Assembly (NCBI RefSeq): GCF_018437505.1 | Contig: NZ_CP072467.1 | Span: 4,612,010 to 4,676,009 of the forward strand | From: Spiractinospora alimapuensis | GTDB taxonomy: Bacteria > Actinomycetota > Actinomycetes > Streptosporangiales > Streptosporangiaceae | Direction: 5' to 3' | DNA: 64,000 nt | In this document: positions 37,062 to 50,699 of the stretch, in pieces | How positions within the stretch are numbered: the first letter of the stretch is position 1 | Layout: the number at the start of each line of letters is the position of its first letter | The notes under the pieces: model-generated | The model's database searches: none | Told to the model about the DNA's origin: nothing | Seen by the model: the letters and a program-made list of their open reading frames with translations, nothing else | Position numbers and translations under genes: made by a program

Positions 37062-37646
37062 ATGGGCTCCGACTCCGACGACCGGTGGCTGGTGGTGGGC
37101 CTGGGCAACCCTGGTCCGCGCTATGCCGGCAACCGTCACAACGTCGGGCACATGGTGCTCGATGTCCTGGCTCAGCGTTCGAGTGAGCGCTGGAAGGGGC
37201 ACAAGACACGGACAGACGTCGCTGTGGTCAGGATCGAGGGCGTGCCCACGGTCCTGGCCAAGCCGCGTTCCTACATGAACGTCTCTGGCGGCCCCGTCGC
37301 GGGCGTCAGCGACTTCTTCTCCGTTCCCGTGGACCGGGTGGTCGTGGTCCACGACGACATGGACATTCCCTTCGGCGCGATCAAGATCAAGCGCGGGGGA
37401 GGCGCGGGCGGGCACAACGGCCTGCGGTCCATCTCCAAATCGTTGTCCGCCCCCGACTACGTGCGGGTTCGATTCGGAGTGGGGCGTCCGCCCGGCTCCC
37501 AGGACGCGGCGGACTACGTGCTGCGCGACTTCTCCTCCACGGAGCGCAAGGAGCTCGACGTCGAGCTGGAGCGGGCCGCGGACGCGGTGGAGGCCGTGTT
37601 GGCCCATGGCGTGGAGAAGGCGCAGAACACCTTCCACGGTTCCTGA
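37062..37646 (+). CDS. pth: Peptidyl-tRNA hydrolase
   Basis: A 194-residue enzyme that frees tRNA from stalled peptidyl-tRNA. Blocks: [24 protein letters not shown] with the catalytic His, [25 protein letters not shown] and [14 protein letters not shown] start at the ATG at 37062, which follows AAGGAGG; the frame could start at GTG 36984 with a 26-residue low-complexity extension. In related genomes mfd usually follows nearby, while here 9.5 kb of sulfate-activation and sugar genes intervene. Confidence 0.93.
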
Positions 37647-37881
37647 TCCCCACTCTCGGGTGGGGTCTCCCTTGGCGGAGCTCCGAGTACGCCCTGGTCG
37701 CCGCCGCCGAGTTCGTCGTCAGCACTCCTCGGTCGGCCGTGCGCCCTTCGGTGCGATCCCCGGAACCCCGGTTTCCTCGCGTGGATCTCCGGATCGGCAC
37801 ACCTCCCACAATTACTGTGTGCGATCATATTGCTACACAAAGGCAGGATTCTGTGGGGGGAATCGAGCGTTGGGAGGTGTG

Positions 37882-38031
37882 ATGGTCGTGGTGAAACGTA
37901 CGTCCCTGGGGGGTATCCGTGCGATGGGACGTATGAGCGCGATCTACGTTACGTTGAGAGCCGGTCGTTCGCGCTGTTTCGGCCGCTATGACCGGGATGG
38001 TGGATCCGTGTGCCGATCGGGATTGGGCTAG
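37882..38031 (+). CDS. Short peptide upstream of cysQ, possible leader peptide
   Basis: A 49-codon frame with a strong GGGAGG site five bases before ATG at 37882. The product is basic, has two Cys near the C-terminus (SRCF and SVCRSG) and stops 9 bases before the cysQ GTG. It resembles no family I know. It could be a translated leader that couples or senses cysteine supply, but only two Cys are present, so this is weak. The A/T-rich stretch at 37803-37860 upstream may hold the promoter. Confidence 0.35.
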   Translation: MVVVKRTSLGGIRAMGRMSAIYVTLRAGRSRCFGRYDRDGGSVCRSGLG

Positions 38032-38040
38032 GTAGGGCAG

Positions 38041-38820
38041 GTGAGCGGTATCCGTAACGACCATGAGGTGGCTCGGGACTTGGCTACCGAGGCCGGCCAG
38101 CACCTGTTGCGTCTGCGGGCTCGTCAGGGGTTCGACGAACCCGACGTCCTGCGAACCCTGGGTGATCGCCTCTCGCACGAGTTCCTCTTCTCGGCGCTGG
38201 AGCGACTTCGCCCCAGTGACCCGGTGCTGTCGGAGGAGGGGGTCGTTGACGACCCCAGTCGCCTGACCGCACGGAGGGTCTGGATCATCGACCCCCTGGA
38301 CGGGACCCGGGAGTTCGCGGAGCCCGGGCGCAGCGACTGGGCCGTCCACGTCGCCCTGTGGGAGGCGGGCGACCTGGTCGCCGGGGCGGTCGCCCTCCCG
38401 GCCCAGGGCAGCACCCTGTCCACCGTCGATCCGCCGTGGCTTCCGGGGGAGCGTCCGGCCGAGCAGCGACTGCGGATCACGGTCAGTCGCACCCGGCCGC
38501 CGGAGTTCGCGCGACGGATCGCCACCCAGTTGGGGGCGGAGCTGGTGCCCATGGGGTCCGCGGGGGCGAAGATCTGCGCGGTGCTCCTGGGCATCGCCGA
38601 CATCTACCTGCACTCGGGGGGACAGCACGAGTGGGACAGCGCGGCTCCGGTAGCCGTCGCTCGGGCCGCGGGGCTGCACACGTCCCGCATCGACGGAAGT
38701 CCGTTGACCTACAACCAGCCGGACGCCTCGCTGCCGGACGTCCTGGTGTGCCGGCCCGAACTCGCGACGACGTTGCTGGCGAGCATCCAGTCCTGCGCGA
38801 ACACCGAAAACAGCGCGTGA
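38041..38820 (+). CDS. cysQ: 3'(2'),5'-bisphosphate nucleotidase, CysQ-like (inositol-monophosphatase fold)
   Basis: A 259-residue Mg-dependent phosphatase. Motifs: SEEG (metal Glu), WIIDPLDGTREF (Asp-Pro-x-Asp-Gly-Thr core) and GGQHEWDSAAPVAVARAAG (second metal Asp). CysQ enzymes hydrolyse 3'-phosphoadenosine 5'-phosphate, the by-product of sulfotransferases, and can also act on PAPS or inositol phosphates. It stands before cysD and cysN, supporting the PAP role. GTG start at 38041. Confidence 0.85.
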   Translation: MSGIRNDHEVARDLATEAGQHLLRLRARQGFDEPDVLRTLGDRLSHEFLFSALERLRPSDPVLSEEGVVDDPSRLTARRVWIIDPLDGTREFAEPGRSDWAVHVALWEAGDLVAGAVALPAQGSTLSTVDPPWLPGERPAEQRLRITVSRTRPPEFARRIATQLGAELVPMGSAGAKICAVLLGIADIYLHSGGQHEWDSAAPVAVARAAGLHTSRIDGSPLTYNQPDASLPDVLVCRPELATTLLASIQSCANTENSA

Positions 38821-38826
38821 GAATGT

Positions 38827-38846
38827 GGGGCGGGTCACACCGCCCC
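38827..38846 (+). terminator. Hairpin after cysQ
   Basis: GGGGCGG at 38827-38833 and CCGCCCC at 38840-38846 pair perfectly around GTCACA, 6 bases past the cysQ stop. Confidence 0.6.
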
Positions 38847-38859
38847 GCCGCCTAAAACT

Positions 38860-38901
38860 GTATACTCCCGGTCGGTTAGGTAGGGAATAGCCGCCGGGAG
38901 T
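38860..38901 (+). promoter_or_regulatory. cysD promoter and leader inverted repeat
   Basis: GTATACT at 38860-38866 is a good -10 box. It overlaps ACTCCCGG (38864-38871), which is perfectly complementary to CCGGGAGT (38894-38901), an 8-bp dyad with a 22-base centre. It may be a split operator or an RNA hairpin in the cysD leader. Confidence 0.45.
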
Positions 38902-39013
38902 TCGGAGTGTGGCCACGTCCGGGCCACGCCCAGCCACCCCTCCCACGTTCGGGGCGACCACTCTGCCTGACCGTCCAAGGCGGACCGCTACGACGAGTGA
39001 GGCGTGGACGGAC

Positions 39014-39934
39014 ATGACGCAGGCGCCCAGCCGATACCAGATGTCCCAGCTCGACCTGCTCGAGGCCGAGGCCTTGTACATCATGCGGGAGGTCGCCGCG
39101 GAGTTCGAGCGGCCGGTCCTGCTCTTCTCCGGGGGCAAGGACTCGATCGTGATGCTGCGGCTGGCGGAGAAGGCCTTCTGGCCGGGACCCATTCCCTTCC
39201 CCGTCATGCATGTCGACACCGGGCACAACTTTCCCGAGGTCATGGAGTTCCGGGACCGACGCGTCGCCGAGACCGGCGTCCGGTTGATCGTCGCCTCGGT
39301 ACAGGAGCAGATCGACGCGGGGGTCGTGCGTGAGCCCACCGGCCGGTGGGCCAGCCGCAACCGGTTGCAGACCTCGGCACTCCTGGACGCCCTGGAGCAC
39401 CACCGGTTCGACGCCGCGTTCGGCGGCGCCCGCCGCGACGAGGAGAAGGCGCGCGCCAAGGAACGAATCTTCTCCTTCCGCGACGAGTTCGGTCAGTGGG
39501 AGCCCAAGGCGCAACGCCCCGAACTGTGGAACACCTTCAACACCCGGGTCGCCCAGGGGGAGAACATCCGGGTGTTCCCGCTGTCGAACTGGACCGAGCT
39601 GGACATCTGGGCCTACGTACGGCGCGAGGAACTCGCCCTGCCGTCGATCTACTTCGCACACGAACGCTCGGTGTTCGAGCGCGACGGGATCCTTCTGGCC
39701 GACAACCCGCACGTGCACCGGGACGACGACGAGACCGTGTTCTCCACCATGGTGCGCTACCGCACGGTCGGCGACATGACCTGTACCGGTGCCGTCCGCT
39801 CCACCGCCACCACCCTCCCCGACATCGTCGCGGAGATCGCCGCCACACGGATCACCGAACGGGGGCAGACCCGCGCCGACGACCGATCCAGCGAGGCCGC
39901 GATGGAGGACCGCAAGCGCGAGGGCTACTTCTAG
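39014..39934 (+). CDS. cysD: Sulfate adenylyltransferase subunit 2
   Basis: A 306-residue PP-loop ATPase subunit that, with CysN, makes adenosine 5'-phosphosulfate from sulfate and ATP. Blocks: PVLLFSGGKDSIVMLRLA (PP-loop), FPVMHVDTGHNFPEV, AFGGARRDEEKARAKER and a C-terminal MTCTGAV with RKREGYF at the end. ATG at 39014 gives the usual start; a longer frame begins at GTG 38909 after a GGAG. Followed 53 bases later by cysN. No cysH/cysI is in the window. Confidence 0.95.
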   Translation: MTQAPSRYQMSQLDLLEAEALYIMREVAAEFERPVLLFSGGKDSIVMLRLAEKAFWPGPIPFPVMHVDTGHNFPEVMEFRDRRVAETGVRLIVASVQEQIDAGVVREPTGRWASRNRLQTSALLDALEHHRFDAAFGGARRDEEKARAKERIFSFRDEFGQWEPKAQRPELWNTFNTRVAQGENIRVFPLSNWTELDIWAYVRREELALPSIYFAHERSVFERDGILLADNPHVHRDDDETVFSTMVRYRTVGDMTCTGAVRSTATTLPDIVAEIAATRITERGQTRADDRSSEAAMEDRKREGYF

Positions 39935-39987
39935 GTCGTGCCCAGGCCACCACGAACACAGCGAACACGAGGCGGGGAAGCTTGCTG

Positions 39988-41253
39988 ATGACCAACGACA
40001 TCCTGCGATTCGCCACCGCCGGCTCGGTCGACGACGGCAAGAGCACACTGATCGGTCGGCTGCTCTACGACTCCAAGTCCATCTTCGAGGACCAGTTGGA
40101 GGCGGTGGAACGCACCAGCCGCGACCGTGGCGAGGAGGACGCCAACCTCGCGCTGCTCACCGACGGTCTGCGGGCCGAGCGCGAGCAGGGAATCACCATC
40201 GACGTCGCCTACCGGTACTTCGCGACGCCGCGCCGGACGTTCATCATCGCCGACACTCCGGGGCACGTGCAGTACACCCGCAACATGGTGACGGGGGCGT
40301 CCACTGCGGACCTGGCGGTGGTCTTGGTGGACGCGCGCAAGGGCCTACAGGAACAGAGTCGTCGCCACGCGTTCCTCGCGACGCTGCTGCGGGTGCCGCA
40401 CCTGGTGTTCGCGGTGAACAAGATGGACCTCGTCGACTACGACGAGGCTCGGTTCGAGCGGATCAAGGACGAGTTCACCGACTTCGCGGCCAAGTTGGAC
40501 GTCCCGGACCTCACCTTCATCCCCATCTCCGCCCTCCGGGGTGACAACGTGGTCGGCCGGTCCCCGAACATGGACTGGTACGACGGGCCCCCGCTGCTGC
40601 GCCACCTGGAGAACGTGCACATCGCCTCCGACCGGAACCTGGTCGACGTGCGCTTCCCGGTCCAGTACGTGATCCGACCGCACCGCGCGGCCGACCCGGC
40701 CCTGCACGACTACCGGGGCTACGCCGGCCAGGTCGCCGGCGGCGTCCTCAAGCCGGGCGACACCGTCACCCACCTTCCGTCGGGACTGGAGACCACGATC
40801 ACCGAGATCTCCACGGCGGACGGTCCCGTGGCCGAGGCGTTCTCCCCCATGTCGGTGACGCTGCGGCTCGCCGACGACATCGACATCTCCCGCGGGGACA
40901 TGATCTGCCGCCCCCAGAACCAACCGTCGGTCACCCAGGACGTGGACGCCATGCTGTGCTGGATGTCCGAGACCCGCCCCCTCACCGCTCGGAGCCGGCT
41001 GCTCCTGAAACACACCACCCGCAGCGTTCGCACCGTGGTCCGGGACGTCCACTACCAACTGGACGTCAACACCCTGCACCGCGACGAGTCCGCCGACACC
41101 CTCAGGCTCAACCAAATCGGTCGTGTCGCCCTGCGAACGACACAGCCCATCTTCACCGACGCCTACCGACGCAATCGCCTGACCGGCGGATTCATCCTCG
41201 TCGACGAGTCGACCAACGCAACCGTCGCCGCCGGCATGATCGTCGACACCTAG
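39988..41253 (+). CDS. cysN: Sulfate adenylyltransferase subunit 1 (GTPase)
   Basis: A 421-residue EF-Tu-like GTPase that drives APS formation by CysD. GTP motifs: GSVDDGKSTLIGRLL, DTPGHVQYTRNMVTGAS, NKMD. It lacks a C-terminal APS kinase domain, in contrast to fused CysNC/NodQ; the kinase is instead supplied by the CysC gene 3.3 kb downstream on the other strand. ATG at 39988 follows GGGGAAG. Confidence 0.95.
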   Translation: MTNDILRFATAGSVDDGKSTLIGRLLYDSKSIFEDQLEAVERTSRDRGEEDANLALLTDGLRAEREQGITIDVAYRYFATPRRTFIIADTPGHVQYTRNMVTGASTADLAVVLVDARKGLQEQSRRHAFLATLLRVPHLVFAVNKMDLVDYDEARFERIKDEFTDFAAKLDVPDLTFIPISALRGDNVVGRSPNMDWYDGPPLLRHLENVHIASDRNLVDVRFPVQYVIRPHRAADPALHDYRGYAGQVAGGVLKPGDTVTHLPSGLETTITEISTADGPVAEAFSPMSVTLRLADDIDISRGDMICRPQNQPSVTQDVDAMLCWMSETRPLTARSRLLLKHTTRSVRTVVRDVHYQLDVNTLHRDESADTLRLNQIGRVALRTTQPIFTDAYRRNRLTGGFILVDESTNATVAAGMIVDT

Positions 41254-41555
41254 GCGACACAACGCTCGACTCACCCGTCCGCCCGCCGCCACCCACGACG
41301 GACGCGCTCCGCGCGCGGTTCTTGCTGGGGTCGGGGCTCCACGCGGGAACGCGTCGCCGGCGACCTGGCTGGGTGTTCCCTGACGTAAATCCGCGACGCG
41401 GGTGGGGGCGTCCGCGCGCGGCCCCCGACACAGGACCCACTGGACGCTCGCTTTGCTTTCGCCGCTGCGGACGTACGGCGCACGAGGCTCTCCCCTTGCG
41501 GGTGCATGGGGAACCGAACGGGGTGGATGCCAATGCCGACAGTGTGGGCGGTGTG
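41254..41555. other. Gap between convergent cysN and the GT2 gene, no gene seen
   Basis: A 302-base G/C-rich stretch with no conserved frame. I see no strong terminator hairpin either, which is odd for a convergent pair. Confidence 0.5.
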
Positions 41556-43007
41556 TCAGAATCCTCGGCCGCGGCGGTGGAGCGTGTTGAGGATGGTGCT
41601 GGGGGACACGCCTCCGGCGATGGCGGTGGCCAGGTAGGCGCGTGGCTCGATGGGGTAGCTGCGTAGCGTGGTCGCGATCCAGCGGAGGGCCGCTCGTCGG
41701 TGGCCGGCCGCCGCCTCGGCGAAGGCGACCTGGCCGGCGACGCGTGCGTAGCCGGAGCGGACCAGACCGAACTCGGGGTACTCCGACAACAGCCAGCGCA
41801 GCGCACTGGAGGTGGCCTGCCATGCCTCGGAGTAGGGGGAGGGCAGGTGCCAGGGGACGCGTACCGCGGGTTCGGGGCACGCGCGCACGGTGCCGTTGCG
41901 CGCGATCCGCAGCAGCAGTTCGTAGTCCTTGGCGTATGTGCCGGGGATCCGTTCGTCGATGAGCCCGGTACGACTCATCAGGGTGCTGCGTCGCAGGAGG
42001 TAGGTGGAGGGGTGCACCTCGGTTCCGCGGTAGCGCAGGAGGTCGCTGAACGTGATCCGCCCCGGCCGTGGCGTGTGGTCGACCTCGCGCCGATCGCCGA
42101 CCGCGCGAATGCCGCAGGCGACGAGGTCGGTGTCGGGGTGGGCCTGGAGCAGCTCGACCTGGGCCCGGAGCTTGTGAGGCAGCCACGTGTCACCGTCGTC
42201 GCAGAACGCCACATAGTCGGAGGTCGCCGCGAGGATCCCCGAGTTGCGGGCGCCGGCCAGACCAGGGCTGCGGGTGTTGGCGACGCCGGCCAGCGAGCGG
42301 TTCTCCGTTCCCGCCGGTAGTGAGGCGTCGGGCTCTCCCCGCGCCGGCACCACGAGCGTGTGGATCCGTCCGGGGTAGTCCTGGCCGGCCAAGGAGCGGA
42401 GCGTGCGACGGAGGGCGTCGGAGTGGGTCCGGGCCGCGACGACGGTGGTGACGTCGGGCCATCCGTCCTGGGGGCACACCGTCGGAAGTGGCCCGCTGCC
42501 CGCACGCCGGGGCGCGGGGAGGGACGGGGTGCCCTGTCGATGCCCCACAGAGTTCCGGTGGCCGGCCGTGACCGGGGCCCGAGGCACGGTGTCCCGGTTC
42601 ACCCGGAAGTCGATGGGGTGTGCGAGGGCACGTTCCAACGCGTCAGCCAACTCCGAGGCGGTCGCGCAGCGAACGTGATCGGCGTCGGGCACGGAGAACG
42701 GGTGCTGCGCGGATCCGGCGTCGATCCGCTCCGCGTCGGTGTAGGGCCCGGCGACGATGGGAACGTGGCCGTGCCGTCGAGCCGTGCGGATGGACCGCGT
42801 GCACGGAGAGCAGACCACGACGATCGCCCGGTCCAGCGCGGCCGTGAGTCCGTCGTCCGGCGTGACGGTCGGCTCGTGCTGGACGGCCAGGGGCTCTACC
42901 CGCAGCAGGGGATGACGGGTGGCCCAGGCTTGCGTCCAGGACAGTGGGAAAGCAAAAGGAGAGTCCTCGGAATCGAGCAATACCAGGACGTTCGGCCGGT
43001 CCTGCAT
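41556..43007 (-). CDS. Family 2 glycosyltransferase with an extra N-terminal domain
   Basis: A 483-residue protein. The C-terminal part (from about residue 185) is GT-A: TVVAARTHSDALRRTLRSLAGQDYPG, GLAGARNSGILAATSDYVAFCDDGDTWLPHKL with the Asp-Asp-Gly-Asp metal motif, and TYAKDYELLLRIAR. The first 170 residues contain ALDRAIVVVCSPCTRSIRTARR and resemble part of a nucleotide-sugar or receiver-like fold, which I cannot name. No membrane helix. It is transcribed with the APH-like and CysC genes, so its product may be a glycan that becomes sulfated (inferred). GTG at 43019 is an alternative start. Confidence 0.75.
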   Translation of the reverse strand: MQDRPNVLVLLDSEDSPFAFPLSWTQAWATRHPLLRVEPLAVQHEPTVTPDDGLTAALDRAIVVVCSPCTRSIRTARRHGHVPIVAGPYTDAERIDAGSAQHPFSVPDADHVRCATASELADALERALAHPIDFRVNRDTVPRAPVTAGHRNSVGHRQGTPSLPAPRRAGSGPLPTVCPQDGWPDVTTVVAARTHSDALRRTLRSLAGQDYPGRIHTLVVPARGEPDASLPAGTENRSLAGVANTRSPGLAGARNSGILAATSDYVAFCDDGDTWLPHKLRAQVELLQAHPDTDLVACGIRAVGDRREVDHTPRPGRITFSDLLRYRGTEVHPSTYLLRRSTLMSRTGLIDERIPGTYAKDYELLLRIARNGTVRACPEPAVRVPWHLPSPYSEAWQATSSALRWLLSEYPEFGLVRSGYARVAGQVAFAEAAAGHRRAALRWIATTLRSYPIEPRAYLATAIAGGVSPSTILNTLHRRGRGF

Positions 43008-43245
43008 ACTCTGTCTCACCTCGATGCTGTGTCGCCGCGCCGGGGGCCTCGAAGCTGTGGACGTACTGCGACTCGTTACATGGAATGAGCGGGCCGAGAG
43101 GAGGCGTGCGGGGTTACCGCGGGGGATCGGCCCTTATCGGCTTGCCGTAATCATGCCATAGCTAAAAGTAACTGGGTCGCTTCGTTCGGTATCGATTCGA
43201 ACAGCGGTCAGGTCCGAGGATCACCAGGGGCTTTCGCCTGAGCGG

Positions 43246-44376
43246 CTACCGCCTCGTGCCGTTCGCACGACCCACCAGATTCCGGAGAATCGGCATCAGC
43301 CAGGGCCGAGGACTCCAGCTCGGGTCCTCACGCAGCCGTCGGGTGGTGCGGTCCGTGAGGTACAGGGCCATGGTGGTGGCCACGGTGCGGCTCGTCGGCG
43401 TCACTCCCGAACGCGCGAAGGCCGGGTCGTCGAGCAGCCTGGCCCCGCTGCGCAGCCAGGTGTCGACACCGGTGCGGGGATTGGCGCGCAGGCACTCCCG
43501 CAGGTTGTAGTGCAGCGCGTCGAAGCCGAGAGGGGCGCACACCTCGGCGCGCTCCCAGTCCCACACGAAGTCACGGCGCTGGGTACTGGACATGTTCCAA
43601 CGCGTCAGGTCGCCGTGCCAGGCGCCGAACAGAAGGTTCACGTCGGGTAGTCGCGTGAGCTGCGCCCGCAGAGCGTCACCGAGCGCACCGCCGGGCAGCT
43701 CCTTCACCGCGCGGGTGAGCCGATGCAGGTACTCGCTGGCGGCGAGCGGCTGCTGCACGACACCCGCCGTGTTCGCGATCTGGATCGTCGCCCGCAGCAA
43801 CCGGTGCCGGGTCGGCGGGTCGGTCTGTTCCCCCACCGGAAGGGCCTCCTGGACGAGGAAGGGCATCCCGCGCCACGAGCCGGCGTGCAGGACGCGGGGC
43901 ACCGTGACGTCGGGCAGGTGACAGTGGCGCAGGGATCGGAGCGTCTCCGTCTCGGATCGGACGAGCCGTGCGGTGTGTTCGTCCACCGCGAACTTCGCGT
44001 AGCCCACGGCGCCGCCCAACGGAGTCAGGAGAAGCGCGACGGGTTTCCGGTCGCTGCCCGTGCCGCCCGTCCGCACCGCCAACACGAGGTCCCGGCGCAG
44101 CACGTCGGCGAGCATGCGCTCCAACCCGTGGGGCGGAGCGAGCCGGACCTCTCCCTCCGCCGCCAACGGCCCCAGCCCGGCGGCGAAGCTCAGCCCCAGC
44201 ACGGTCGCGTGCACCCGTTCGATCCGTGGCTGCCCGGTGGTGAAGGCCATCAGTGCCCGGGCCGCCGCGTGTCGGTGCCCCGATGGGAGGAGGACTCGGT
44301 AACCGCCTCGGATCGAGGACACGAAGTAGCCGGGGCTCCGCTCGGACTCGATGCCAGGACGCACGAGAGACATCAT
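43246..44376 (-). CDS. Aminoglycoside-phosphotransferase-fold kinase-like protein
   Basis: About 376 residues (400 if begun at GTG 44448). The APH/choline kinase catalytic loop is visible as AWHGDLTRWNM (His-Gly-Asp...Asn), followed by FVWDWERA supplying the metal Asp. The N-terminal lobe has YAKFAV with a likely ATP Lys and an RSETETLRSLRH helix. Such proteins phosphorylate small hydroxyl compounds or sugars, or act as kinases in glycan synthesis. It sits between a GT2 gene and CysC on one strand, so I infer a role in the same product pathway. Substrate unknown. Confidence 0.7.
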   Translation of the reverse strand: MMSLVRPGIESERSPGYFVSSIRGGYRVLLPSGHRHAAARALMAFTTGQPRIERVHATVLGLSFAAGLGPLAAEGEVRLAPPHGLERMLADVLRRDLVLAVRTGGTGSDRKPVALLLTPLGGAVGYAKFAVDEHTARLVRSETETLRSLRHCHLPDVTVPRVLHAGSWRGMPFLVQEALPVGEQTDPPTRHRLLRATIQIANTAGVVQQPLAASEYLHRLTRAVKELPGGALGDALRAQLTRLPDVNLLFGAWHGDLTRWNMSSTQRRDFVWDWERAEVCAPLGFDALHYNLRECLRANPRTGVDTWLRSGARLLDDPAFARSGVTPTSRTVATTMALYLTDRTTRRLREDPSWSPRPWLMPILRNLVGRANGTRR

Positions 44377-44526
44377 CGTGCGCGTGGAGGTGTCCCGCCG
44401 GTACCGACCCGCCGTCCGTTGTCCGGAAGATTGGAACTTGCCGGACACGTTCGCCTGGCCGCGCGAGAAGAGAGCCCCACCCTGCGGCTGGCGGTGTTTT
44501 CGTTGGCCAGCCAGGAGGGGCGGAGC

Positions 44527-45900
44527 TCAGGCCACCCATCCTCCGGAGCGCAGGGTGTCGAGGACCAGATCCACCGCGTGGTCGACGGAGATCTCCGTGG
44601 TGTCAACGGTGAGGTCGGCGTCGTCAGGAACCTCGTAGGGGTCGGAGACTCCCGTGAACTCTGGGATGACGCCGGCCCGGGCCTTGGCGTAGAGGCCCTT
44701 TCGGTCGCGGGACTCGCACTCGGCCAAGGGCGTCGCCACGTGGACGAGGACGAAGTCGCCGTGCCGCTCCACCATCGCTCGGACCTCGGCCCGGGTGGCG
44801 GCGTAGGGCGCGATGGGCGCGCACACCGCGACGCCTCCGTGGCGGGCGATCTCGGCCGCCACGAATCCGATACGGCGGATGTTGGCGTCGCGGTCCTCCT
44901 TGGAGAAGCTGAGCCCCTTGGAGAGCATCCGGCGCACGACATCCCCGTCAAGGAGGGTGACCGGGCGGCCCGACTCACGGATTCGGTCGGAGACACCGCG
45001 CGCGATCGTGGACTTACCCGACCCCGACAGTCCGGTGAAGAACACGGTGAGGCCACGGTTCGGGCGTGGGGGCCACTGGCGTGCGAGTTCGTCGGCGACC
45101 TCGGGCGGGGTGAACCAACCCGGCAGGGGTTTCCCATGGGCCAGCATCCGGTGGAGTTCGGCCTGGCCAAACTCCGGACGCTCGACCGGCTCGACCAGCG
45201 TCCGGGACGCGCCGAAGCCCTGGGCGACCCCGACAGCGGTCTCGGGCGTGTACTCGGGCAGGGCGACGGCGACGACCTGGGTCCCGGCCGGCAGGTGGGA
45301 CCGGGCCGCCAACACCGCGTGCATGGTCCGCTCGTCGTGGAACGGAGTGTCGACGAGGACCAGGACCTCGGCCGTCGCGGAGGTGGGGGTGCGTGTGTCC
45401 GTCTCCTCGGCCAGGTGGTGCGCGGCGGCGTGGATCTCCGCGAGCGCGCTGTGGTGGAGAGGGGTGGACGTCACCACGCACAACAGCGGATCGGACGGAC
45501 GCTGCCGCCGTTCCCGGACGTCCCCGGGACTGAGGCGCAACCGGCGGAAGACCCCGTGCGCGGGTCGCTCGATCGTGGTCACGGGGCCGGCGAGGTAGGT
45601 GACCCCCGACTCCCGCCACCGCTCGGTGACCGCGAGGCGTGCCAGCGGGGCACCTTCGGGGTCGGTGAGTGTCACGGCGTCGCCCCGGGGCAGGTCGGAC
45701 GGAACCGGTAGCACGACGGGGATCGACCAGGGACGTCCGTCCACGAGTCGACCGTGCTCCCGGACGCTGGCGACCTCCGCGCGGCCCATGAAACCGGACA
45801 GCGGATACGCGCCGTTCAGCAGCAGTTCCACATGTGCCAACGCGGCCGAATCCGGCGTGATCTCGACCGGCTCGCTGGAATCCACACTCGTACTGGTCAC
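44527..45900 (-). CDS. cysC: Adenylylsulfate kinase fused to a degenerate ATP-sulfurylase-like domain
   Basis: A 457-residue two-part protein. Residues 1-275 resemble single-chain ATP sulfurylase: a PUA-like start (HVELLLNGAYPLSGFMGRAEV), then a catalytic-like fold in which the usual QTRNPxHRAH is replaced by VTSTPLHHSA and the GRDHAG motif is absent, so it is probably inactive. Residues 283-457 are APS kinase: Walker A GLSGSGKST (290-298), LLDGDVVRRMLSKGLSFSKEDRDANIRRI, and IAPYAATRAEVR. It makes PAPS from the APS formed by CysDN. First gene of a leftward unit with the APH-like and GT2 genes. Confidence 0.88.
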   Translation of the reverse strand: MTSTSVDSSEPVEITPDSAALAHVELLLNGAYPLSGFMGRAEVASVREHGRLVDGRPWSIPVVLPVPSDLPRGDAVTLTDPEGAPLARLAVTERWRESGVTYLAGPVTTIERPAHGVFRRLRLSPGDVRERRQRPSDPLLCVVTSTPLHHSALAEIHAAAHHLAEETDTRTPTSATAEVLVLVDTPFHDERTMHAVLAARSHLPAGTQVVAVALPEYTPETAVGVAQGFGASRTLVEPVERPEFGQAELHRMLAHGKPLPGWFTPPEVADELARQWPPRPNRGLTVFFTGLSGSGKSTIARGVSDRIRESGRPVTLLDGDVVRRMLSKGLSFSKEDRDANIRRIGFVAAEIARHGGVAVCAPIAPYAATRAEVRAMVERHGDFVLVHVATPLAECESRDRKGLYAKARAGVIPEFTGVSDPYEVPDDADLTVDTTEISVDHAVDLVLDTLRSGGWVA

Positions 45901-47144
45901 GGAATCAGCCTAGGGGGCCACCCTCCACCTGCGCCCGTCCCGCTCCCCGCATCGAGCCGATCTCGGACCCTGCGCCGTCGACCGTACGGGACACGCCGCG
46001 CGACCCCAGTCCGGCTCCGACAACCCACCCACAAGGGGGTGCTGGTCGCACGGCGACACCGTGGGTGCGGAGGGCCACCGGGCGTGACGCAGCGCCCCCG
46101 GCTGAGTGGTGGGCGCCCGCCACCACGTGCCACCCACTCGGGACGGGGCGCCACGGCTGCTCCACCCACCCGCACCCTTACCGCTGGCGCCGTGTCTCTG
46201 TCGCGTCATGGACCTCGTCGCCCAGCGCCCCGCCGGCGCCGACGAGCCAAGGGCGTCCGGCCGTGGCTCACCGTCGTGAGAAGCGGTGGGCCTCGTCGCC
46301 CGCCGAGTGTGCCCGTCGTGGGTGCGGGGCGTCGGGCTTCCGGGCGTGCGTTGACCTGTGTCCGCCGCGACGGTTCAGGGGTTCGTGTGAGGCGCTTCGT
46401 CGGCCCCGATCGCTTCGGACGCGTCCGGATCCGCTTCCCGGGCACGGTCTGACGGCCCACCGCTCCCTACCGCGGCCTACCGCGGGTGGCCGTCCTGACG
46501 TGCGAAGGGCCTCTACGTGTGGCGCGTCCACTGTGTCGATCCACTCGCGGGGGCGCACGGTGCCGAAGGGCGAGTGGCTTGTGCCGGTCGCCGCCCCGGA
46601 CGGATTTCTCGAGACGTCTGTTACCTACAGGCGGTCTTCCTGGAGTCCGGGGACGTGGGGGCGCCGCACGCCGCGTTCCGTCCCACGGGTAACCCGGAGC
46701 CGGCGGGGGAGCAAAGGGATGGCCACGTGCGGTGTGTCCGTGGGTGTGTGGGGAATGGAGGGAACAGCGCACGTGGGTGGAGCGTTGCCTCTTGTGGGGC
46801 CGGGGAGTGCGTGGTGTGCAACCGCTCGGGGGCGACATAGTCTGTGCCCGGGGCTGTTCGGTCCATGTTTCCCGTCGTTGGGGTTCTGCCGTGGATCCGA
46901 TGTTCGTCGTTGGCGGCGGGGGCGGTTCCGCGTCCGACTCCCACCGAGCAGCCACCGATGCTCCCGAGGGGTGTGGGTTCCCGCGGGAGGGGATGGCTGG
47001 CGCCTGGACACGCCGGCCCACGATGCGGGTGACGCATCCCGACGACGGCCCGCGGTCCCGGGGGTGGTGCGCTGGTCGGAGCGCGACACGGCGGCCCAGG
47101 CCGCACGACCCCGAGCGATCCACAAGTACAGAGCCTAAGGAACC
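45901..47144. other. 1.24-kb region upstream of mfd with no supported gene
   Basis: Several long frames exist on both strands (for example 46065-47138), but they are rich in Cys, Trp, Arg and Pro, lack the local third-position G/C bias and have no ribosome binding site. Composition differs from flanking genes, with many GTGTG and CGTGG tracts. It may be a decayed gene or leftover DNA at the edge of the PAPS module. The mfd promoter should lie near its right end. Confidence 0.55.
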
Positions 47145-50100
47145 ATGAGTCTTTCTGGACTGCTCTCCGCCGTGCGCACGGATCCCGCGCTGAGTGGGGT
47201 CATCGAGGCAGCGCGCCAGGGAACCGAGCCCGAGCTGGACGTCGTCGCGCCGGGGGCGTTGCGCCCGGTGCTCCTCGCCGCGTTGGCGGCCGACGCGCCG
47301 ACGGGGGGCGGTCGCCCCATCCTCGCCGTCACGGCGACCGAGCGTGAGGCGACGACCCTCGCCGATTCACTTGGTGATCTCCTGCCCGCCGAGTCGGTCG
47401 CGGTGTTCCCACCGTGGGAGACGCTCCCGCACGAACGTCTCTCGCCTCGCTCCGACACGGTCGGGCAGCGTCTGGCCGTCCTGCGCCGTCTCGCCCACCC
47501 GGACTCCGACGACCCCCTGAACCTCCCACTCCGTGTGGTCGTCGCGCCCGTGCGCAGCGTACTGCAGCCACTCGTGCAGGGCCTGGGTGACCTCGTCCCG
47601 GTGCGGGTGCGTACCGGGGACGCCGTGGCGATGGAGGACCTGGTCCAACGCCTGGTCGACGCCGGATACGCGCGCGTCGACCTCGTGGAGAAGCGGGGTG
47701 ACCTCGCGGTCCGCGGTGGCATCCTGGACGTCTTCCCACCCCAGGAGGAACACCCCCTACGCCTGGAGTTCTGGGGCGACGAGGTGGAGGAGATCCGCTC
47801 CTTCCAGGTGGCCGACCAGCGTTCCATCGCCGGTGAGGACGCCGCCGCGGGCGGCCTGCTCGCGCCCCCCTGCCGGGAGCTGCTCCTCACACCCGAGGTT
47901 CGCGAGCGTGCGCGGACCCTCGCCGAACAGCACCCCGCCCTGGCCGACGTGCTGGACAAGCTCGCCGAGGGCATCACGGTGGAGGGCATGGAGGCGTTCG
48001 CGCCCGTGCTCGCCGGGGACATGGAGTCCCTCCTGCGGTACTTCCCCCGCGACGCCCACGTACTGGCCTGCGACCCCGAACGGATCCGAACCCGGGCGAC
48101 CGAGCTCGTCGAGACGAGCCGGGAGTTCCTCGAGGCGTCCTGGATCACCGCCGCCGCGGGTGGCGAGGCTCCGATCGACCTCGGCGGCTCCGCCTACCGT
48201 TCCATCGGTGACGTGCGACGCGAGGCACTGGACGGGGGACTCGCGTGGTGGACCGCCAGCCCCTTCGACGCCGGCCACGTCGCGGAGGACACCGAAGGCG
48301 ACACCACGATCGTCCTCAGCGCCGCCGGCGCGGAGACCTACCGCGGTGACACCGAGCGGGCCCTCACCGACGCCAAGACCTGGCTGCACGACGAATGGCG
48401 CGTCGTACTCCTCACCGAGGGACACGGTTCCGCCGAACGGCTCGTCTCCATGGTGCGTGAGGCGGGGCTCGGCGCACAGCTCGTCACCGACCTCGCCGAG
48501 GAGCCGCGCACCGCGGTGGTCACCGTAGCCACCGGACGGCTGGACCACGGATTCGTCTGGCGCTCGGTGCGCACCGCGGTCCTCACCGAGGCGGACCTGG
48601 CCGGGCAGCGCTCCTCCACCAAGGACATGCGCCGGATGCCCAGCCGTCGGCGCGGCACGATCGACCCGCTGCAGTTGAAGCCCGGCGACTACGTGGTCCA
48701 CGAGCAGCACGGCGTCGGCCGCTACATCGAGATGGTCAGCCGCGAGATCCAGGGCGCCACCCGCGAGTACCTGGTCATCGAGTACGCCCCATCGAAGCGC
48801 GGCCAGCCCGGGGACCGACTCTTCGTCCCGACCGACCAGCTTGACGAGGTCACCCGGTACGTGGGTGGCGAGGCTCCCACCGTGAACCGGATGGGCGGCT
48901 CTGACTGGCAGAAAGCCAAGAGCCGAGCCCGCAAGGTCGTCCGAGAGATCGCCGGCGACCTCATCCGTCTCTACTCCGCGCGTCAGGCGTCGCCCGGTCA
49001 CGCGTTCGCCCCCGACACCCCGTGGCAGCGTGAGCTCGAGGACGCCTTCCCCTACGTGGAGACCCCCGACCAGTTGGCGGCGATCGACGAGGTCAAGCGG
49101 GACATGGAGAAGTCCGTCCCGATGGACCGGCTGATCTGCGGAGACGTCGGCTACGGGAAGACCGAGGTGGCGGTGCGGGCCGCCTTCAAGGCGGTGCAGG
49201 ACGGCAAGCAGGTGGCGGTCCTCGTGCCGACCACGCTGCTCGTCCAGCAGCACCTCTCGACGTTCGCGGAGCGCTACGCCTCGTTCCCCGTCAATGTGAA
49301 GCCGCTCTCCCGCTTCCAGACCGACGCCGACGTCGCCGCGACGATGGAGGGGCTGCGCGACGGCACCATCGACGTGGTGATCGGTACCCACCGGCTGCTG
49401 TCGACCGACATCCGGTTCAAGCAGCTCGGGCTGATCATCATCGACGAGGAGCAGCGGTTCGGGGTCGAACACAAGGAGTCCCTGAAGCGGATGCGCACCC
49501 AGGTCGACGTCCTCGCGATGTCGGCCACACCCATCCCGCGCACCCTGGAGATGGGGCTGACCGGGATCCGCGAGATGACGACCATCCTCACGCCCCCGGA
49601 GGAACGCCACCCCGTCCTGACCTTCGTCGGCCCCTACGAGGGCAACCAGTTGGCCGCGGCGATCCGCCGGGAGCTGCTGCGTGAGGGACAGGTCTTCTTC
49701 GTCCACAACCGAGTCGCCTCGATCGAGAAAGTCGCCGCGCAGGTCCGGGAGCTCGTGCCCGAGGCACGCGTCGCCTACGCCCACGGCCAGATGAACGAGA
49801 GCCAGCTCGAACGGGTGATGGTCGACTTCTGGGAGGAGAAGTTCGACGTCCTGGTGTCCACCACCATCGTGGAGTCGGGCCTGGACGTGCCCAACGCCAA
49901 CACCCTGATCGTGGACCGCGCCGACACCTACGGGCTGTCCCAGCTTCACCAGCTCCGCGGGCGTGTGGGGCGTGGCCGGGAACGGGCCTACGCCTACTTC
50001 CTCTACCCGCCGGAGAGGCCGCTGAGCGAGACCGCCTACGAACGCCTGTCCACGGTGGCCCAGCACACCGAACAGGGCGCGGGCATGTTCGTGGCGATGA

Positions 50101-50699
50101 AGGACCTGGAGATCCGCGGCGCCGGCAACATCCTCGGCGCGGAACAGTCGGGGAGCATCGCCGGCGTCGGTTTCGACCTGTACGTCCGCATGGTGGGCGA
50201 GGCGGTCCGGGAGCTGCGGACGGGGGGTCCGGTCGAGGAGGAGGTCGAGACCAAGGTCGAGCTCCCGATCGACGCCCACATTCCGCACGACTACGTGCCC
50301 GGGGAGCGGCTGCGCCTGGACGCCTACAAGCGGATCGCCAGCGTCGGGGGACCGGAGGACATCGTCGCCATCCGGGAGGAGCTCTCGGACCGGTACGGGG
50401 AGCCGCCCCAGGAGGTCGACAACCTCTTGGAGGTCGCACGGTTCCGGGTCCGAGCCAAGAAGGTCGGCCTGACCGACGTCGTTCTCCAGGGGAACCAGGT
50501 CCGGTTCGCGCCGGTGGGTGAGCTGCCGGAGTCGCGCCAACTACGTATGAGGCGCATGTACCCCAAGGCGATCCTCAAGCAGGCCACGCAGACGCTCTTG
50601 GTGCCGATCCCCAAGGCCGGTGGCCTGGCCGGCAAGCCACTGCGCGACCTCGAGCTGCTGCGGTGGTGCACGGAGCTCGTGGAGGCCGTGCTGGAGTAG
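47145..50699 (+). CDS. mfd: Transcription-repair coupling factor
   Basis: A 1184-residue ATP-dependent translocase that removes RNA polymerase stalled at DNA damage and recruits UvrA. Order: UvrB-like N-terminal domains (about 1-380), RNA polymerase interaction domain (PGDYVVHEQHGVGRY near 510), helicase lobes with Walker A GDVGYGKTEVAVRAAFKA (about 665), IIDEEQRFGVEHKE (about 765), SATPIPRTLEM and the TRG/second-lobe blocks ending GLSQLHQLRGRVGRGRERAYAY, then the C-terminal autoinhibitory domain. ATG at 47145. Length is normal. Confidence 0.97.
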   Translation: MSLSGLLSAVRTDPALSGVIEAARQGTEPELDVVAPGALRPVLLAALAADAPTGGGRPILAVTATEREATTLADSLGDLLPAESVAVFPPWETLPHERLSPRSDTVGQRLAVLRRLAHPDSDDPLNLPLRVVVAPVRSVLQPLVQGLGDLVPVRVRTGDAVAMEDLVQRLVDAGYARVDLVEKRGDLAVRGGILDVFPPQEEHPLRLEFWGDEVEEIRSFQVADQRSIAGEDAAAGGLLAPPCRELLLTPEVRERARTLAEQHPALADVLDKLAEGITVEGMEAFAPVLAGDMESLLRYFPRDAHVLACDPERIRTRATELVETSREFLEASWITAAAGGEAPIDLGGSAYRSIGDVRREALDGGLAWWTASPFDAGHVAEDTEGDTTIVLSAAGAETYRGDTERALTDAKTWLHDEWRVVLLTEGHGSAERLVSMVREAGLGAQLVTDLAEEPRTAVVTVATGRLDHGFVWRSVRTAVLTEADLAGQRSSTKDMRRMPSRRRGTIDPLQLKPGDYVVHEQHGVGRYIEMVSREIQGATREYLVIEYAPSKRGQPGDRLFVPTDQLDEVTRYVGGEAPTVNRMGGSDWQKAKSRARKVVREIAGDLIRLYSARQASPGHAFAPDTPWQRELEDAFPYVETPDQLAAIDEVKRDMEKSVPMDRLICGDVGYGKTEVAVRAAFKAVQDGKQVAVLVPTTLLVQQHLSTFAERYASFPVNVKPLSRFQTDADVAATMEGLRDGTIDVVIGTHRLLSTDIRFKQLGLIIIDEEQRFGVEHKESLKRMRTQVDVLAMSATPIPRTLEMGLTGIREMTTILTPPEERHPVLTFVGPYEGNQLAAAIRRELLREGQVFFVHNRVASIEKVAAQVRELVPEARVAYAHGQMNESQLERVMVDFWEEKFDVLVSTTIVESGLDVPNANTLIVDRADTYGLSQLHQLRGRVGRGRERAYAYFLYPPERPLSETAYERLSTVAQHTEQGAGMFVAMKDLEIRGAGNILGAEQSGSIAGVGFDLYVRMVGEAVRELRTGGPVEEEVETKVELPIDAHIPHDYVPGERLRLDAYKRIASVGGPEDIVAIREELSDRYGEPPQEVDNLLEVARFRVRAKKVGLTDVVLQGNQVRFAPVGELPESRQLRMRRMYPKAILKQATQTLLVPIPKAGGLAGKPLRDLELLRWCTELVEAVLE

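Follow-up and report, generated by a model that had tools for sequence, protein, structure and literature searches.

What does a set of genes for making the activated sulfate 3'-phosphoadenylyl sulfate (PAPS) do when it sits, together with genes for a glycosyltransferase and a kinase-like protein, between pth and mfd? The question is raised by a 64,000-nucleotide stretch of the Spiractinospora alimapuensis genome (contig NZ_CP072467.1, positions 4,612,010 to 4,676,009), which is called here, at its full length, the window. An original prediction, made from the letters of the window, described a cysQ-like gene, cysD and cysN running rightward and genes for CysC, an aminoglycoside-phosphotransferase (APH)-fold protein and a family 2 glycosyltransferase (GT2) running leftward; gene calls and Pfam/NCBIfam models confirm these six genes, their strands and their location. 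The prediction interpreted them as an inserted pathway for an O-sulfated glycan or small molecule. Comparison with related genomes suggests instead, with a probability of roughly 0.8, that the window carries a reduced form of a sulfated-exopolysaccharide locus of the type known as wps-1, from which the polymer-building genes have been lost.

The comparison covered 60 genomes, including that of the window. Twenty stretches around matches to the kinase or CysC were fetched, then 40 more, 13 of which were extensions toward pth, and their genes were called by a codon-usage gene caller trained on the window genome. From a scan with the kinase alignment, the best 80 of 493 relatives were kept as named loci (these loci and the fetched stretches carry L numbers), so the presence of APH among them (called in 79 of 80) is a matter of construction; some genomes are present twice across the locus sets. 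The kinase is found in 33 of the 60 genomes, and the CysC protein, or at least a match to adenylyl sulfate (APS) kinase, in 54. In the fetched stretches kinase and CysC homologues lie near each other beyond chance, mostly by mfd, which is present in 19 of the first 21 loci (window included) and lies within the stretch in 16 of the 80 named loci.

The comparison of the pth-mfd interval reveals that many relatives hold a Wzx/Wzy polysaccharide locus with sulfotransferases and with the same GT2, kinase and CysC fusion. The pth end of the complete locus reads prs-L25-pth-sugar-phosphate priming transferase-cysQ-cysD-cysN-sulfotransferase-GT2-WecG-type glycosyltransferase, and the mfd end reads sulfotransferase-Wzx-sulfotransferase-APH kinase-Wzy-Wzz-GH26-like-CysC fusion-mfd. 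This arrangement differs in detail between genomes, several of which carry the CysC gene on the opposite side of mfd. Domains were checked with Pfam on representatives, the priming transferase in one locus (L089). In all 13 pth-side stretches (L089-L101), cysQ, cysD and cysN lie near pth-L25-prs, separated from it by 0 to 4 genes, and a sulfotransferase of the ST_c family is present in 12 of these stretches. Wzx, Wzy and a sulfotransferase of the ST_a family are found in 65 of the 80 named stretches; neither Wzx nor Wzy is present in 10. Some of the stretches are cut by contig ends.

Missing from the window locus are the pth-adjacent priming transferase, Wzx, Wzy, Wzz, the sulfotransferases and the Alg14-like partner of GT2. 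Profile searches detect no Wzy and no Wzx in the window genome (one contig, 5.86 Mb), no fragment of the missing families in the window interval (best E 0.12), and no Wzz within positions 37600-47200, the only region searched for Wzz. Of the 60 genomes, 28 have Wzy and exactly these have Wzx at E<1e-90, with 5 further genomes with weak Wzx matches (E 1e-5 to 1e-11) set aside before the counts were made. The kinase is present in those 28 Wzy genomes and in 5 more, the window genome being one of the 5 (Fisher p 2e-12, uncorrected for relatedness). The direction of change appears to be loss, because Wzy fragments persist directly 5' of APH in Allosalinactinospora (L143, E 2e-11) and in N. potens (L173, E 2e-14). 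When the whole genomes of nine reduced species (one a metagenome-assembled genome) were searched, full-length Wzy was found in none (seven had no match and two had fragments); the controls gave 2 of 2. The proposal that PAPS is made for sulfation is borne out by ancestry, since relatives carry the same genes with sulfotransferases, Wzx, Wzy and Wzz, and since the cysteine pairs of the distant CysH protein are of the APS-reductase type (see below). An intact O-sulfated product is not supported, as no Wzx, Wzy or cognate sulfotransferase is found in the genome.

The idea of an inserted pathway is likewise not supported. The pth-mfd location is common to many relatives, although most Nocardiopsis loci that were fetched have purine/folate genes, not mfd, next to their Wzz end. 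The single cysD of the genome, on which assimilation would also have to draw, speaks against an insertion as well. In Modestobacter sp. DSM 44400 (L199), a related Wzy-APH-sulfotransferase-Wzx locus also lies between mfd and pth; because Modestobacter, which presumably belongs outside the window's family, shares this position, it may be old. Given this shared location, and a GC content of the pth-mfd interval that resembles that of the surrounding DNA, a recent insertion is rejected. Within L130 (18598-19755) and similar Nocardiopsis loci, a gene for a subtilase-family protease separates cysN from the ST_c sulfotransferase; in L152 and other reduced loci, genes of protease-like length, known by length only, lie beside cysN.

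The CysC protein is encoded at 44527-45900 on the minus strand (PF01583 6.7e-58, PF14306 3.7e-16; family HMM 9e-209). The family hidden Markov models (HMMs) run over the window were built with its own members included. The identification as CysC holds for the APS kinase, but this is not a plain CysC: it is a 457-aa fusion, like AMIS_7390 of Actinoplanes missouriensis, of an N-terminal PUA_2/sulfurylase-like region (~240 residues) and an APS kinase. The sequence (Q/T)xRNPxHxxH, which we take to be the sulfurylase catalytic motif, is lost, with VTSTPLHHSA in its place. Across 77 CysC-fusion homologues (a set in which a few genomes are present twice, and which is limited to chosen loci and to proteins that reach a length set for each gene), the sulfurylase motif is found in 1 and the APS-kinase P-loop in 77. 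The sole homologue that keeps the sulfurylase motifs (L113, 2545-4275; QTRNPLHRAH and GRDHA) is possibly a glimpse of an ancestral bifunctional enzyme. In the window protein, the sulfurylase domain would appear to be vestigial and the APS-kinase part retained. Its AlphaFold 2 model (mean pLDDT 90.8) has as its top Foldseek match 3cr8 (E 1.3e-36, TM 0.74 by query), which is also the best sequence match. This structure is the two-domain APS kinase of Thiobacillus denitrificans; an inactive sulfurylase-like domain fused to APS kinase is reported from that species and from Entamoeba (PMC13213808). The window protein has the same arrangement of a sulfurylase-like domain joined to APS kinase, but it is shorter than 3cr8, with 32-33% identity when the folds are aligned, and belongs to a polysaccharide locus. 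A literature search on inactive sulfurylase fusions in actinobacteria gave nothing relevant among the matches listed.

Sulfate activation can also serve cysteine synthesis, and a different explanation of the module is plain assimilation, in which it would feed APS or PAPS to a distant cysH and genes of the sulfite-reductase family, with GT2 and APH as unrelated neighbors. The small and large (GTPase) subunits of sulfate adenylyltransferase are encoded by cysD (39014-39934, plus strand; TIGR02039 452 bits, over cut-off) and cysN (39982-41253, plus strand; TIGR02034 566 bits, over cut-off). Searching the genome with PF01507 yields two matches, the window cysD and a cysH at ~178 kb of the contig; PF01583 yields the window CysC and a marginal match (7.5e-4, 0.4 bits over cut-off) that was set aside, and a profile search finds no Sat in the genome. 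The cysH gene adjoins a sulfite/nitrite-reductase-family gene and a CbiX-like gene, both below NCBIfam cut-offs. As the original prediction stated, no reductase lies within the module; of the second assimilatory cluster that it proposed to look for, cysH is found but no further cysD. Since the window cysD is the sole cysD found, CysDN probably also serve cysteine synthesis and would thus be shared between the PAPS module and assimilation.

This sole cysD and the presence of cysH favor plain assimilation, as do the names (phosphoadenylyl-sulfate reductase) of the models that CysH scores above cut-off. However, CysH carries CC and CxxC cysteine pairs. Such pairs mark APS reductases, and CysH scores higher with the specific APS-reductase model (222 bits, cut-off 235) than with the PAPS-reductase model (172 bits, cut-off 254). 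CysH is probably of the APS-reductase type, and because of its cysteine pairs CysC is probably dispensable for assimilation. Furthermore, relatives keep GT2, APH and the CysC fusion as conserved components of their sulfated-polysaccharide locus. The original prediction had tied plain assimilation to a genome with one cysDN, a dependent cysH and no sulfotransferase; cysD is indeed single and cysH is present, but one sulfotransferase exists. Taken together, plain assimilation is quite unlikely.

The genome search for sulfotransferases finds none with PF00685 and a single one with PF13469, at 914811 (914.8 kb). Across the 60 genomes (the window's own included), PF13469 is matched in 52 and PF00685 in 47, and every one of the 36 other genomes assigned to the window's family gives two or more PF13469 matches, compared with 1 in the window genome. 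The expectation that sulfotransferases would be found elsewhere in the genome is thus correct for this one gene, but the protein is unrelated to the locus families, and PF00685 is unmatched. As a displaced member of the locus it is rejected: its best match to the locus sulfotransferases (E 0.046) is not significant, and in the PDB it is most similar to protein-tyrosine sulfotransferases (E 0.0012). The neighborhood of this gene (L007 6287-17502; genome 905001-925000) contains genes for a phosphoenolpyruvate (PEP) mutase/cytidylyltransferase fusion, a thiamine pyrophosphate (TPP) enzyme, an iron-dependent alcohol dehydrogenase (Fe-ADH) and a TPR-LicD protein, a set that would suit a surface glycan decorated with phosphonate. 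Directly before the sulfotransferase lies a NACHT-type protein (NNH7).

Such surroundings allow a further explanation, a small working pathway in which GT2, the kinase and the lone sulfotransferase would produce a small sulfated glycan, possibly with a contribution from the phosphonate genes beside the sulfotransferase. GT2, APH and CysC are all intact, and the sulfotransferase does lie near PepM, the TPP enzyme, Fe-ADH and the TPR-LicD protein. However, it is far from the module and has no significant similarity to the locus sulfotransferases, and the two pathway genes themselves have changed. The GT2 (41556-43019, minus strand; WpsA-like GT2 domain, PF00535 2.6e-12; family HMM 4e-202) has lost, in its N-terminal region, a detectable PF04101 (GT28_C) match, which is present in 4 of 4 long-type orthologues tested, and the family HMMs find no Alg14-like neighbor for it in the window interval. 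In addition, APH is accelerated (see below). A small working pathway is thus unlikely. The motif of the window GT2 reads DDGD where homologues carry DDDD. The GT2 of another reduced locus, that of Nocardiopsaceae bacterium YIM 96095 (L174, 11740-13161), does not match the DD-containing motif of the others and may be decaying.

The APH-fold kinase (43246-44448, minus strand; WpsI-like; PF01636 1e-5; family HMM 8e-121) changes fast and keeps its catalytic residues, as both the HGDxxxxN and WDWE motifs are present in the alignment. Its rate is expressed as the distance of the window protein to 12 chosen relatives (those with the gene) over the mutual distance of the relatives, counting only loci on a chosen list and proteins long enough for the gene concerned. 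The kinase ratio is 2.90 (bootstrap 2.51-3.44); because this exceeds the ratios of the eight flanking and cys genes (1.27-1.98), the kinase is clearly accelerated. Among the other genes GT2 has a ratio of 2.00, prs 1.98 and the remaining seven 1.27-1.59; with another taxon set and FastTree distances, the values are 2.83 for APH, 2.04 for GT2 and 1.65 for prs.

The fold of this protein might suggest an antibiotic-resistance kinase that is in the locus by chance. Its AlphaFold 2 model (pLDDT 89.1) matches APH-fold proteins, and the top matches, at low identity, include macrolide and aminoglycoside phosphotransferases as well as steroid, fructosamine and maltose kinases. However, no PDB chain matches the family profile at E<=0.1, ST_a directly adjoins APH in 67 of 80 loci (which were found with an APH query), and the counterpart WpsI is reported to be required for normal sporangia (PMC13390465). 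Given the synteny with the polysaccharide locus, a resistance role is rejected as highly improbable.

Why the kinase outlasts the polymer genes is addressed by four reduced species, Nocardiopsis kunsanensis, coralli, xinjiangensis and salina. Wzy was not found in any of their genomes, all four of which were searched; three lack Wzx and ST_a at the locus, and the fourth (L161) is cut by a contig end directly behind the kinase. Within a set of 4 reduced and 6 full-locus species picked by the author, kinase dN/dS is 0.10-0.27 (6 pairs) in the reduced species, near the range of 0.09-0.21 (15 pairs) in the full-locus species. We tentatively raise the possibility that kinases of the WpsI family have a second role independent of the sulfated polymer; for example, the substrate of the kinase may be a glycan or sugar of the cell envelope that persists without the pathway. 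Such a role is disfavored by the reduced genome G034, whose kinase is, as called, short and has no WDWE match.

Several points weigh against the window being a reduced wps-1-type locus. The window itself contains no Wzy remnant; among first-look candidates in its genome, 27 of 31 for Wzy and 25 of 32 for Wzx were scored, and the sulfotransferase search extended to the two Pfam families named above. CysH passes the cut-offs of NF002537 (260 bits) and TIGR00434 (194 bits), both named phosphoadenylyl-sulfate reductase, and the argument that CysC is not needed draws on the cysteine pairs, because the APS-reductase model falls below its cut-off. The acceleration of GT2 is no greater than that of prs, which makes it a weak case, and APH is under purifying selection in the reduced Nocardiopsis. 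Finally, judging from their sequences, the retained genes, which are intact and have kept their catalytic residues, may be working parts rather than debris.

The remaining features frame the module. To its left is pth (start 36984 or 37062, end 37646, plus strand; PF01195 1.7e-64 and gene call), and to its right mfd (47145-50699, plus strand; TRCF, CarD_TRCF_RID and other domains). A module start at 37882 had been proposed, but no module gene is called there, and cysQ begins at 38041. The cysQ-like phosphatase gene (38041-38820, plus strand; Inositol_P/IMPase family, PF00459 4e-35; family HMM 8e-168) encodes a protein whose top NCBIfam model is CysQ, at 122 bits, under the cut-off of 229; it is expected to clear 3'-phosphoadenosine 5'-phosphate (PAP). 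From 45901 to 47144, ~1.2 kb 5' of mfd, there is no called gene, no remnant of a locus family and no Rfam family. A scan for promoters and terminators gave results no better than those from shuffled sequence.

If the window is indeed a reduced wps-1-type locus, the ancestral pathway would begin with the formation of APS by CysDN and its phosphorylation to PAPS by the CysC fusion. A lipid-linked oligosaccharide would be built by the priming transferase, GT2 and partner glycosyltransferases, modified by the APH-fold kinase, and sulfated by the sulfotransferases. Wzx would then flip the oligosaccharide and Wzy/Wzz polymerize it, with CysQ clearing PAP. In the window genome today, PAPS metabolism and two pathway genes would be what is left, and the polymer is probably no longer made. 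CysDN would persist as the source of APS for cysteine synthesis via the distant CysH. PAPS is probably still made; its likeliest consumer would be the lone unrelated sulfotransferase, or it may have another use.

Among known systems, the window shares CysDN with an assimilatory cluster (sir-cysH-cysDN), but it has glycan-pathway genes, and its cysH and sulfite/nitrite-reductase-family gene are elsewhere. Synechan and other bacterial sulfated-polysaccharide loci are described with sulfotransferase and Wzx/Wzy terms (PMC8205485, PMC11641403, PMC11766843); these belong to other phyla than the window and are likened to it by description only. Bacterial sulfated polysaccharides are called uncommon outside cyanobacteria in PMC13390465, although sulfated capsules of marine Vibrio and Cobetia are also named in the literature. 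A literature search combining Nocardiopsis, sulfated exopolysaccharide and sulfotransferase gave no paper, and within the open-licence literature PMC13390465 is the only paper recognized on an actinomycete cluster of this kind.

That paper described in 2026 the wps-1 cluster of A. missouriensis (AMIS_7280-AMIS_7380, with AMIS_7390 adjacent), predicted to make a sulfated polysaccharide. It encodes WpsA (GT2), WpsB (sulfotransferase), WpsC (GT26), WpsE (GH26), WpsF (methyltransferase), WpsG (Wzx), WpsH (sulfotransferase), WpsI (kinase-like), WpsJ (Wzy) and WpsK (Wzz) (PMC13390465). The statement in the original prediction that no product was described for this gene set still stands for the product, but a gene-for-gene counterpart is now published. 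By gene order and domains, the GT2, the kinase-like WpsI and the sulfurylase/APS-kinase protein correspond to window genes. The Actinoplanes/Paractinoplanes loci compared here (such as L191, L203 and L207) have the wps order CysC-Wzz-Wzy-APH-ST-Wzx-MTase-GH26...GT26-ST-GT2, where ST is sulfotransferase and MTase methyltransferase (domains checked in L191). Compared with wps-1, the window is without Wzx, Wzy, Wzz, both sulfotransferases, GT26, GH26 and the methyltransferase, and it has cysQDN beside the remaining genes.

Deleting any one of wpsA, C, G, H, I, J or K produces squashed sporangia, and deletion of wpsB leaves sporangia that appear normal by scanning electron microscopy, with reduced spore release (PMC13390465). 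Deletion of AMIS_7390 gives a severe sporangium defect, which was termed unexpected, and the paper ties AMIS_7390 to sulfur amino acids; its main text contains none of the terms PAPS, cysC and mfd (PMC13390465). Judging from its homologues, AMIS_7390 is probably the PAPS-forming enzyme for the wps-1 sulfotransferases, and because it probably supplies PAPS to these enzymes of the cluster, the sporangium defect of the mutant would be explained. Judging by the relatives compared, sulfated-polysaccharide loci that bring their own PAPS supply seem to be widespread among actinomycetes and often occupy the pth-mfd interval, and natural deletion series show which genes are retained once the polymer genes go. 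The window bears on wps-1, a cluster needed for normal formation of the spore case in another actinomycete.

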